From Candidatus Anammoximicrobium sp. (GTDB lineage Bacteria > Planctomycetota > Planctomycetia > Pirellulales > Pirellulaceae), in assembly GCA_012515235.1 (NCBI GenBank), contig JAAYYU010000191.1, forward strand, positions 30,397-94,396: DNA of 64,000 nucleotides, given 5' to 3'. The translations under genes and the position numbers were made by a program. Positions 29,564 through 37,227 of the stretch are shown piece after piece. Under the pieces are notes generated by a model. It had not been told where the DNA came from, did no database searches, and was given only the letters and a program-made list of their open reading frames with translations. Position 1 is the first letter of the stretch; every line of letters starts with the position of its first letter.

Positions 29564-30742
29564 TCAGTCCGCGGGGCGCCGGCGAGCGATCTTGGGCAGC
29601 GTGATGGCAAAGGTCGTGCCCGCTGCCGTCTCGCTGCGGAATTCGACCTTGCCGCCCAGGTAGCGTTCTCCCAGCAATTTCATGCTGTGCGCGCCGATGC
29701 CCCGGCCGGATTTGGCCTTCGTGCTGAAGGACCGTTGAAAGACCTGAGCCTGGACATCAGGCGGCATCAGGCCCGGATTGTGGACGCTGAATACGACGTC
29801 TTCTCCGCGTTCCACACAGCGGACGGTGACCGTCTGGCCTTGGGGGATCGCCTCCAGGCCGTTTTTGATCATGTTGCCCAGCACGCGTCCCAGCAAGCGC
29901 GCATCGGTCACGATCTGTCCCGGCCAGATTTCGGCCAGCGCGATCGCACGGGTGCGGGCCACCGGGTGCCGGGCGTACGTCTTCTGCAAATGCTGCAACA
30001 GATCGCGCGCCGCGACCGGCTGAAAATCGGGCTCTAATTCGCCGGATTCGGCGTACGTCAAGTCGCGTTGGGCGCGGATCTCTTCGACCAACTCCTCGGA
30101 CAGCTGAGCCAGTTCGGCCAACTCCTCGTCCTCGGGTGAATCCCGCGGCACGCGATCGCGCAGCAGTTCCGTGTAGCCTTGAATGCTGCCGGCCGTGTTC
30201 ATCACGTCGTGGAAGAACAGGCGAGCCAGGACCGCCAGCCGCTTCTGATCGCTGATGTCCTTCGCCACGCAGATCGTAAACCGTTCGCCGTCCGCCCTTA
30301 CCGCCGTCGCGCTGACTTTCAAGTCCAGGGCCGCCCCGCTCGGCTCGGCCAGCGAAATACGGCATTCGCGGGTCACGAAGCTGTCGTTGCGCTGGCTCTC
30401 CAAAACCGCCTGCACGGCACCGCACAGCGAGCAGTCGGGGGCCGTGCCGCAGCCGTCCGGACCCTGCGGCACGTTTTGGCAGCCCATCAGTTCTCCCAGC
30501 CGTTTGCCGAGCACGGACGGCAGTTTGCAGTCCAGCGTCTCCAGCAGCGCCCGATTGGCCGCGACAATCTGGCGGTGCTCATTCAAGATGACAACCAGGT
30601 CCGACATCGCGTCGATCGTCCGCTGCAGCAGCGGAATCGAGGCGACCAGCGTTTGTTTACGTTCGAATTCCTGCGGCTCATCCCGCCCCGCCGGGGCGAA
30701 ATACGTCGTCACCGGCAACTCAGACCCGTCAGAGTCGCTCAT
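29564..30742 (-). CDS. PAS-domain sensor histidine kinase
   Basis: PAS-like N-terminus; H-box LARLFFHDVMNTAGSIQGYTELL; HATPase NMIKNGLEAI and GRGIGAHSMKLLGERYLGGKVEFRSETAAGTTFAITLP. Confidence 0.88.
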   Translation of the reverse strand: MSDSDGSELPVTTYFAPAGRDEPQEFERKQTLVASIPLLQRTIDAMSDLVVILNEHRQIVAANRALLETLDCKLPSVLGKRLGELMGCQNVPQGPDGCGTAPDCSLCGAVQAVLESQRNDSFVTRECRISLAEPSGAALDLKVSATAVRADGERFTICVAKDISDQKRLAVLARLFFHDVMNTAGSIQGYTELLRDRVPRDSPEDEELAELAQLSEELVEEIRAQRDLTYAESGELEPDFQPVAARDLLQHLQKTYARHPVARTRAIALAEIWPGQIVTDARLLGRVLGNMIKNGLEAIPQGQTVTVRCVERGEDVVFSVHNPGLMPPDVQAQVFQRSFSTKAKSGRGIGAHSMKLLGERYLGGKVEFRSETAAGTTFAITLPKIARRRPAD

Positions 30743-31144
30743 TACCTTGTCCTCTCGAAATCTGGATCACCGAGGCTTGCTTGCCCAGCCAACGTGCTTT
30801 TCCCCGACTTACCGGCAGTGCCTATTATGACACGCAAGCCGCTCGAAGTCATCGGCAGATGATCACGCCCGGACGACGCCGCGATTGCCGTAAAACCGGG
30901 GAGAGATCCGGACTGGCGTTTCGCAGGCAGCCGGGCAGCCGAAAAACTGATCTTGCCCGGATTGGCTCGATGTTTCAAAATGCGGCCCTGCAAGTCGCAA
31001 GGAAATGATCTCCACTGCTCGTCTCGTCGCGGACCAGCCGGCATGATGCCGGGCGATTGCTCGCGTGGCAAGGTACGCTCGTTCCTCACCTGCTAGGGAC
31101 TTGGCGGCGCCTGGCCTCGGCAAAAATCATAAGGAGATCCGTCC

Positions 31145-31918
31145 ATGCTCGTGCTCACTCGCAAAGAAGCTGAAAAGATCCTCTTACCCACGCTGGGCGT
31201 CACCGTCGAAGTTCTGCGCATCCGCGGCAACAAGGCGCGGATCGGCATTGATGCGCCGGCCGAGATTCCGGTGGTGCGGCAAGAGTTGTCGGGGTTGAAA
31301 TCGATTGAATTCACGGCGGACGTGCCGGCGTCCGTGCAACTCAGCCGGTTGCTCCGCGCCGTCCGGCAGCGAATGGACCGGGCCGCGCTATCGCTGAATT
31401 TGTTGCACCGCCGTTTGGAGGAGTGCGGCGACAGCGAGGCTTTGCAGCTCGTGTTGGACGTCTTTCGCGAACTGGAGTCGCTGGACCGCGACGCCGGGGA
31501 AGCTGTCGAGTCTTCGTCGTCGCCGGTGCCTCGCGCTTTGTTGATCGAAGACGACGAGAACCAGCGTGAAATGTTGGGCGGATTCCTTCGCCTGAACGGT
31601 TTCGACGTCGCGTCGTCCTGCGATGGCCAGGACGCGTTGGACTACCTCTCGCTGCACGCTCCACCCGACGTCGTGCTGTTGGACATGGTGATGCCGCGCC
31701 GCGACGGACCGTCGTTTGTCAGGCAGGTCCGCGCCACGGAGGGGCTGTCGCATCTGAAGTTATTCGCCGTCAGCGGCACGGATCCGGCTTCGCTGGGCGT
31801 GACCACAGGCGTCGGGGGCATCGACGGCTGGTTTCCCAAACCGCTTGACGTGGAACATCTGGTCCAGGTCATGACGGAGGAAGTGGGACCTGGGGCGGCC
31901 TTGAGCGTAGCGACTTGA
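31145..31918 (+). CDS. CsrA-domain / response regulator receiver fusion protein
   Basis: N-terminus MLVLTRKEAEKILLPTLGVTVEVLRIRGNKARIGIDAPAEIPVVRQEL aligns to CsrA; C-terminus RALLIEDDENQREMLGGFLRLNGFDV...VVLLDMVMPRRDG...FAVSG...FPKPLD is a canonical REC domain. SD AAGGAG upstream. Confidence 0.9.
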   Translation: MLVLTRKEAEKILLPTLGVTVEVLRIRGNKARIGIDAPAEIPVVRQELSGLKSIEFTADVPASVQLSRLLRAVRQRMDRAALSLNLLHRRLEECGDSEALQLVLDVFRELESLDRDAGEAVESSSSPVPRALLIEDDENQREMLGGFLRLNGFDVASSCDGQDALDYLSLHAPPDVVLLDMVMPRRDGPSFVRQVRATEGLSHLKLFAVSGTDPASLGVTTGVGGIDGWFPKPLDVEHLVQVMTEEVGPGAALSVAT

Positions 31919-34908: not shown

Positions 34909-37227
34909 TCACAACCGTTTCCAGCGGGTTCCCGCCGGGGTGTCGGTCAGTTGGACGCCCAGTGCCTGCAATTGTTCTCGCAGCGCGTCGGCCTGCGCAA
35001 AATCCTTGGCTTGCCGGGCCGCGTTGCGGGCCTCGACCAACTGCTCCACGTGTTCGTCGCGCTGCTCTGCCGGCTCGAAGTCGATGACTGCCAGGATCTG
35101 ATTGACCTGACGCACGAAGCCGAGGACTTGCTGTACCTGCTCGCCGTCCAATTCGTTGGCAGTCAGCAGCCGGTTGACCAGGCGGACCAGCCCGAACAGT
35201 TTTCCCAGGGCCGTGGAGATGCTCAGGTCGTGGTCCATGGCCTCCTGCCAGCCGCTGTGGGCTTCGTACAGGGCCTGATCCAGATCGCCGCTGCGCCGGC
35301 CCGACTGGAAATGCTGCAGGCGAGCCACGAATTGGTTCAGCCGGGACACGCAGTGCCGGGCTTGCTCCAATTCGCTCGGCGCATAGTTGAGCACGGTGCG
35401 GTAATGAGTGGCCAGCAACCAGTAACGCACGGTCGGCCCATCGAAGCCGAGGGCCAGCACATCCTCCAACCGCAAATCGTTGTCGGCGGCGCGGCTCACC
35501 TTCTTGCCGTCCGCCATCACCACTTCCGAGTGCAGCCACAGCCGGGCGAACGGTTTGTTGTTCAGTCCCGCGGCGATCGCGATCTCGTTGTCGCCGTGGG
35601 GAAACGTCAGGTCCGTGCTGGCCGTGTGGATGTCGAAGGGCTGGCCCAGGTAGCGGACGGCCATGCACGAGCACTCGATATGCCAGCCCGGCCGGGCCTT
35701 GCCCCAGGGCGTCTGCCAGAAGATGCCGGCCTTGAGTTCGGCCAGCGTCGGGCGTTTGAAGAGGGCGAAATCGCCGGGGTGGTCCTTTTCGTAGTAATCG
35801 TACGTCGTCGACGCCGTGCTGCGCACCTGCTGCAGTTCCACGTGAGACAGTTTGCCGTACTCGGGAAAGCTGCCGATGCGGAAGTAGACCGACCGCAGTT
35901 TTTCGTAGGCCAGGCCCTTGTCCAGCAGGCCGCGGGTCTGTTCCACCATGTCGTTCACGTGGTCGCTGGAACGCGGGTAATGCTGCGCCCGCTTGATCCG
36001 TAACGTGTCCAGCGTCTGGAAGAAGGCCGCTTCCCAACGGGCCGTGAAGTCCCGCAACTGGCCGCCGGCCTGCAAGCATTCGCTGACGGTCCGGTCGTCG
36101 ATGTCGCCCAGGTTCACCGCGTGCTTGACCTCGTACCCGCGGTATTCCAGATAACGGCGGAGCACGTCGGCGAAAACGAGGCGGCGGCACAGTCCCAAAT
36201 CGGGCGGCCCGTCCAGGCTGGGACCGCACGAGTAGATCGTGACCGTGCCCGGCTTGACCGGCTCCAGCAGTTCCACCTTGCCCGTCAGCGTGTTGTGGAA
36301 CCGCAGCGGCTGCGGAACGGTTTCGGACGCGAACAGCGACGTGGACAGATACCGCTCGCCGCCGTCCGGCAGCAGGGCCACGACGGTGCCTTGCCCCAGC
36401 GTCCGAGCCTCGTCCAGGGCCACTTTCATCGCCGCTCCGGCGCTCATGCCCACAAAGATCCCTTCCTCTTTAGCCAGGCGCCGGGCCATCTCGTAGGCCG
36501 AATCATCGTCCACGTTGACGATAGCGTGCGGCTCTTCCGGCTTGAAGATCCCCGGAGGGTAGCTCTCCTTCATGTTCTTCAGGCCCTGGATTTTGTGCTT
36601 TTTGAAGGGCTCGACGCCCACGACCCGGACCGCCGGATTCCGTTCCTTCAGGGCCCGCGTCACGCCCATCAGCGTCCCGGTCGTCCCCATCGTCACCACG
36701 ACCACGTCGACCTTGCCGCCGGTGGCGTCCCAGATTTCTCTGCCCGTACCTTCGTAGTGGGCTAGCCAGTTGGCGTCGTTGTTGTACTGGTCGACCAGGA
36801 AATACTTGGCGGGCTCCTCGCGGGCCAACCGATAGGCTTCCTCGATCGCCCCGTCGGTGCCTTGGTAGCCCGGCGTCAGGAGAATCTGGGCTCCGTAGGC
36901 TTTCAAGATCCGCTTCCGCTCCTCGCTGGCGGACTCGCTCATCGTGACCAGGAGTTGGTACCCCTTGACCGCGCAGGCCATGGCCAGGCCGATGGCCGTA
37001 TTGCCGCTGCTGGCCTCCAACACGATCTTGCCCGGCGTCAATTGGCCCGACGCCTCGCCCTGCTCGATCATCTTCAGGCCGATCCGGTCTTTTACCGAGC
37101 CGCCGGGGTTCAGCGATTCCAGCTTCACCAGCAGTTCAACGCCCGGCAGCGGGTTCATCCGCTGGATGCGGATCAGCGGGGTGTTTCCGATCAGTTCCAG
37201 AATGCTGTTGACTTTGAGCGATGGCAT
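34909..37227 (-). CDS. Fusion of PLP-dependent cysteine synthase (N-terminal) and cysteinyl-tRNA synthetase-like protein (C-terminal)
   Basis: N-term: NSILELIGNTPLIRI, NPGGSVKDRIGLKMIE, EASSGNTAIGLAMA. C-term: TIYSCGPSLDGPPDLGLCRRLVFADVLRRYLEYRGYEVKHAVNLGDIDDRTV, GWHIECSCMA, DLTFPHGDNEIAIA, terminal DTPAGTRWKRL. Confidence 0.9.
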   Translation of the reverse strand: MPSLKVNSILELIGNTPLIRIQRMNPLPGVELLVKLESLNPGGSVKDRIGLKMIEQGEASGQLTPGKIVLEASSGNTAIGLAMACAVKGYQLLVTMSESASEERKRILKAYGAQILLTPGYQGTDGAIEEAYRLAREEPAKYFLVDQYNNDANWLAHYEGTGREIWDATGGKVDVVVVTMGTTGTLMGVTRALKERNPAVRVVGVEPFKKHKIQGLKNMKESYPPGIFKPEEPHAIVNVDDDSAYEMARRLAKEEGIFVGMSAGAAMKVALDEARTLGQGTVVALLPDGGERYLSTSLFASETVPQPLRFHNTLTGKVELLEPVKPGTVTIYSCGPSLDGPPDLGLCRRLVFADVLRRYLEYRGYEVKHAVNLGDIDDRTVSECLQAGGQLRDFTARWEAAFFQTLDTLRIKRAQHYPRSSDHVNDMVEQTRGLLDKGLAYEKLRSVYFRIGSFPEYGKLSHVELQQVRSTASTTYDYYEKDHPGDFALFKRPTLAELKAGIFWQTPWGKARPGWHIECSCMAVRYLGQPFDIHTASTDLTFPHGDNEIAIAAGLNNKPFARLWLHSEVVMADGKKVSRAADNDLRLEDVLALGFDGPTVRYWLLATHYRTVLNYAPSELEQARHCVSRLNQFVARLQHFQSGRRSGDLDQALYEAHSGWQEAMDHDLSISTALGKLFGLVRLVNRLLTANELDGEQVQQVLGFVRQVNQILAVIDFEPAEQRDEHVEQLVEARNAARQAKDFAQADALREQLQALGVQLTDTPAGTRWKRL

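Follow-up and report, generated by a model that had tools for sequence, protein, structure and literature searches.

CsrA is usually encountered as a stand-alone protein of about 60–70 amino acids that is under the control of small RNAs or FliW, and in Escherichia coli it is a constitutive dimer. Spo0B and ChpT are phosphotransferases, through which phosphate is passed between receivers. The E. coli CsrA dimer has two RNA surfaces and binds to GGA sites (PMC5694010). In a table of a 2025 review (PMC12471899), E. coli CsrA is entered among the orphan response regulators, with its RNA-binding domain given as C-terminal; this entry appears to be an error.

Receiver (REC) domains coupled to an RNA-binding output are found in the ANTAR regulators, including EutV, AmiR and PdtaR, where the ANTAR output works as a dimer; for EutV (REC-ANTAR), phosphorylation drives dimerisation, which leads to RNA binding (PMC3369931). 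CsrA has itself already been named as a response regulator output, under the entry ‘ANTAR and CsrA’ in a 2007 paper that cites Galperin 2006 (PMC2222644). Apart from Galperin 2006 itself, the papers examined gave no account of the function, middle domain, kinase linkage or taxonomic range of these listed CsrA response regulators, and no experimental work on a CsrA-REC protein came up in literature searches.

The gene described here lies in a 64,000-nucleotide stretch of DNA from Candidatus Anammoximicrobium sp., referred to as the window, and encodes a CsrA domain followed by two long helices and a receiver. Its features are as follows.

31145–31918, forward strand: gene for the CsrA–DHp-like hairpin–REC fusion, 257 amino acids (intact open reading frame, Pfam matches, 79 homologues).
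31131–31136, forward strand: Shine-Dalgarno-like AAGGAG, 8 nt before the ATG of the fusion gene (direct sequence reading).
31145–31288, forward strand: CsrA domain, residues 1–48 (Pfam PF02599, E 3.5e-15).
31328–31510, forward strand: two-helix HisKA/DHp-like hairpin, helices 62–94 and 97–122 (AlphaFold2, profile-profile match).
31355–31357, forward strand: codon of R71, at the H-box His position (column counts in 79 sequences).
31532–31885, forward strand: REC domain, residues ~130–247 (Pfam PF00072, E 2.2e-16; Foldseek TMt ~0.87).
31682–31684, forward strand: codon of D180, the REC phospho-acceptor Asp (conserved in 79/79).

The open reading frame is confirmed as a single real gene, with CsrA, two long helices and a complete REC. 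GC3 is even across its three parts (0.76, 0.81 and 0.78), and the AlphaFold2 model, built from a 59-row alignment, has a mean pLDDT of 86.5 and shows the CsrA strands, the two helices and the REC fold. An assembly join or a frameshift that fused a csrA gene with a receiver gene, the artefact against which the sequence-only reading had warned, has nothing in its favour except a genome bin that is 7.6% contaminated; the same layout recurs in 79 distinct homologues from many independent assemblies, including complete chromosomes, which rules this origin out and leaves it a vanishing probability. The ribosome-binding sequence includes a GGA, like most such sites, and Rfam returned only one sub-threshold, implausible miRNA match around the gene.

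The N-terminus had been proposed to adopt a CsrA fold with its RNA-binding residues retained, and both points hold. Pfam CsrA scores 56.1 bits against a curated cut-off of 27, the first 57 residues find CsrA, RsmA and RsmE as their nearest solved chains (phmmer, best E 1e-7), and a model of the CsrA and hairpin parts of a homologue matches CsrA/RsmA/RsmE structures in Foldseek with a probability of 1.00. Strands β1 and β5 are unpaired in the single-chain models, as expected for a swapped dimer. L4, R6 and R45 are present in the window protein, R45 aligning with CsrA R44 owing to one additional residue in the β1–β2 loop. Among the homologues, R6, G34, A37, P38 and R45 are found in 79/79, E47 in 75/79 and L4 in 74/79, with roles on the RNA-side surface that are taken from established CsrA work. 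The fusion therefore has in common with CsrA, RsmA and RsmE both the fold and the conserved RNA-side residues, but differs from stand-alone CsrA in the attached hairpin and REC and in a changed loop, which in most homologues reads FPxLGI (F14 in 73/79, P15 in 78/79) in place of the usual IGDxI; where E. coli CsrA has H43, most homologues carry Leu or Val. The NCBIfam CsrA equivalogs NF002469 and TIGR00202 scored 44.4 against 73 and 41.1 against 70.1 bits and so missed their cut-offs, indicating that a CsrA domain is present but that the fusion protein is not a standard CsrA.

The receiver is complete, as had been read from its acidic pocket, Asp, Ser and Lys: E135/D136/D137, D180, S210 and K232 are all in place, Pfam Response_reg covers residues 132–242 at 60.4 bits (cut-off 30.2), and the full fusion model matches many receiver structures in Foldseek. 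D180 is invariant in the 79 homologues, whilst Ser/Thr210 and K232 are each present in 77. With the key residues of CsrA and REC kept almost everywhere, both ends are under selection for their usual chemistry. Pfam found no ANTAR domain in the fusion protein, and the comparison with EutV, AmiR and PdtaR is one of plan: the two RNA-binding folds are unrelated, and ANTAR lies C-terminal to REC and acts on transcription antitermination, whereas the CsrA of the fusion is N-terminal and would be expected at GGA sites.

The segment between the two domains had been described as a helical linker. Two helices are indeed predicted by AlphaFold2, but profile comparisons point to a HisKA/DHp-like hairpin rather than a plain linker. 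Its consensus is L-x-H-x-x-R-N-R-L-N (His in 70/79, R in 61/79, N in 62/79, L in 75/79). A hairpin profile of 27 sequences matched the HisKA of neighbouring kinases at 90.7%, and a profile of all 79 matched HisKA with the H-boxes aligned at 95.6% and a score of 41.5, whereas none of 60 column shuffles exceeded 13.2 and the reversed profile gave 12.1. Against a 1412-column kinase alignment, the sole good match was again HisKA with aligned H-boxes (44.1 versus 11.3). Masking the ten H-box columns abolished the signal (10.7), and masking the His alone lowered it to 22.5, which places most of the similarity in the H-box. Pfam HisKA gave weak matches in 10 of 61 fusion members, the best single score being 24.5 bits where 26.9 are needed, and SPOB_a gave weak matches in two of the 61; the window protein had no Pfam HisKA match, and its relatives do not reach the cut-off either. 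The hairpin profile found no HisKA match among PDB sequences, and histidine kinases were absent from the top Foldseek matches of the homologue model, presumably because a two-helix hairpin is too generic. Taken together, the profiles suggest that the hairpin is probably a kinase DHp-like module without the ATPase domain. It shares with Spo0B, ChpT and the HisKA (DHp) domain a two-helix build, an H-box-like motif and the lack of a detectable ATPase domain, but the similarity is weak outside the H-box. The His is absent from the window copy: R71 stands where 70 of the 79 sequences have His, and the closest relative of the window protein (58%) still has it.

A search for CsrA+Response_reg architectures and their range, as the sequence-only reading had suggested, yielded the 79 distinct full-length CsrA-hairpin-REC sequences and placed them in the class Planctomycetia. 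Their hosts are Planctomycetota where named and otherwise titled only ‘bacterium’, and the named hosts span four orders of that class. At least one full-length fusion was present in 20 of the 60 closest genomes (27 genes altogether). A draw of 392 genomes across the phylum gave full-length fusions, clearly separate from ordinary CsrA, in 15, all of which belong to the window's class, as members of its family, its order or the class at large; among the matches listed, there was none from other classes. A scan of 84,980 species, each represented by a single genome, recovered full-length fusions only in records titled as planctomycetes or ‘bacterium’ (among them Rhodopirellula, Rubripirellula, Stieleria, Bythopirellula, Planctomicrobium, Gemmata, Isosphaera and Thermoguttaceae), with other phyla matching the REC part or little more, although the patterns used came from one fusion subgroup and distant fusions elsewhere could escape them. 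Two different CsrA-REC fusions occur together in several genomes (for example G032, G007, G009, G019, G034 and G042), and at locus L042 (genome G039) the genes for a CheB-CheR protein and a kinase-REC protein are flanked by two fusions at a distance of ~6 kb from each other.

Other CsrA genes are numerous in these bacteria. The window genome has 11 CsrA-domain genes, and in the phylum draw the CsrA matches per genome ranged from ~4 to at least 11 in Planctomycetia, compared with 1–3 in other classes. A FliW gene directly precedes a canonical csrA in the window genome (G000:C90:31279-31989), so the usual FliW–CsrA pair coexists with the fusion. Divergent CsrA-domain open reading frames occur at L009 4217–4930 (reverse strand) and L010 4110–4814 (forward strand), of which one has its CsrA domain interrupted by an insertion and the other carries a C-terminal tail; no REC was noticed in them. 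Elsewhere in the window, the open reading frame at 34909–37227 (reverse strand, 772 amino acids) apparently joins a cysteine synthase/cystathionine beta-synthase-like N-terminus to a cysteinyl-tRNA synthetase-like C-terminus, as judged from its translation by eye.

The gene beside the fusion encodes a histidine kinase.

29564–30742, reverse strand: divergent histidine kinase, 392 amino acids, with PAS, a degenerate HisKA, HATPase and no REC (Pfam HATPase_c 2.7e-15).

It lies 402 nt upstream of the fusion, gene start to gene start, and had been named as the adjacent kinase to use for in vitro phosphorylation. In two genomes with a close fusion of their own, G009 and G007, the orthologue of this kinase (62% and 48% identity, respectively) and the fusion lie on different contigs. 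A conserved partnership is thus unsupported; the kinase is a candidate partner, and its adjacency is probably incidental.

Kinase linkage in the wider family takes another form. In 35 of the 68 fusion loci with usable flanks, a histidine kinase is encoded no more than 600 nt from the fusion, and in 24 of the 68 a kinase of CheB-CheR-PAS-HisKA-HATPase organisation is within that distance. The CheB-CheR kinases beside fusions mostly end in REC, and no Hpt domain was seen in them. They are placed convergently, upstream, downstream or divergently with respect to the fusion, indicating that the linkage has persisted, or been re-established, in the course of rearrangements. Among the 27 fusions of the closest genomes, nine adjoin a CheB-CheR kinase compared with ~0.015 expected by chance, an estimate that rests on a hand count of ~39 long CheB frames in the 60 relatives.

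The fusion, with its observed and conserved architecture, its H-box-like hairpin and its gene linkage to hybrid kinases, is read here as an RNA-binding response regulator of the class Planctomycetia, with a probability of roughly 60%. From its conserved residues and fold, the CsrA part would form an intertwined dimer and bind to GGA-type sites in mRNA leaders, and the hairpin, derived from or resembling DHp, could provide a second dimer contact and couple the two ends. A histidine kinase would phosphorylate D180, and the phosphorylated REC would change the dimer, alter RNA binding and thereby affect how target mRNAs are translated or how stable they are. Since E. coli CsrA is constitutively dimeric, the EutV mechanism cannot be transferred unchanged. 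By analogy with the E. coli protein, which is already a dimer (PMC5694010), phosphorylation would more likely reshape or block a standing dimer than create one. Counted against this RNA-binding response regulator reading are the constitutive E. coli dimer, the sub-cut-off NCBIfam scores and the absence of a nearby kinase from about half of the 68 loci.

The rewritten β1–β2 loop and the Leu or Val at the H43 position would also fit a CsrA part that no longer acts on RNA and serves instead as a dimerisation or docking module in a signalling scaffold, for example with FliW- or CesT-like partners; the titles of the Foldseek matches include solved structures in which CsrA docks CesT and a flagellar assembly factor. 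Such a role is improbable when five residues, R6, G34, A37, P38 and R45, are invariant and E47 and L4 nearly so, since a pure dimer module would have no need of this surface.

The hairpin raises a different question. In most relatives, the H-box His could accept phosphate from a hybrid kinase's receiver and pass it to the receiver of its own protein, a relay that is conceivable because the neighbouring kinases mostly end in REC and show no Hpt; it is not possible for the window protein, with R71 at the His position. That the fusion is the end of a phosphorelay, with phosphate handed from receiver to receiver as through Spo0B or ChpT, and that the window lineage has lost the relay step is a possible, if doubtful, account. 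The frequency of the His, the R-N at the next conserved positions, the terminal receivers of the neighbouring kinases and the weak HisKA and SPOB_a matches all speak for it, as does, for the loss, the absence of any CheB match in the window genome. Its weakness is that the HisKA likeness lies mostly in the H-box and vanishes on masking, that the Pfam cut-off is never reached, and that His loss shows no link with kinase loss: a kinase is nearby in 31/59 loci with the His and in 4/9 without, and two His-less members still adjoin a CheB-CheR kinase. The most specific form of this idea, in which most members are one-chain relay ends, running from CheB-CheR kinase to His module to a REC that gates CsrA, and the window protein is relay-free and driven by an ordinary kinase, is a speculative and rather unlikely proposal; if true, it would be a phosphorelay with the control of mRNA, not DNA, as its final output.

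Returning to the RNA-binding response regulator, the core of the original proposal, a response regulator with a CsrA output, is borne out by sequence, structure prediction and conservation, whilst the middle part is more than a plain linker and the adjacent kinase is not supported as a conserved partner. It had also been stated that no characterised example was known, which agrees with the outcome of the literature searches; CsrA is already listed as an output in PMC2222644. The fusion shares its two named domains with the regulators listed there, and is a conserved, real and uncharacterised variant of such regulators, to which the DHp-like module, the Planctomycetia range and the CheB-CheR kinase link are likely additions.

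CsrA control is normally indirect, through decoy RNAs or FliW; a CsrA-receiver fusion would wire signal input directly into mRNA control, and for that input CheB-CheR hybrid kinases are a candidate, since many fusion genes have one as a neighbour. Cultured members, Rhodopirellula europaea, Stieleria tagensis, Bythopirellula polymerisocia and Rubripirellula obstinata, make the idea testable.
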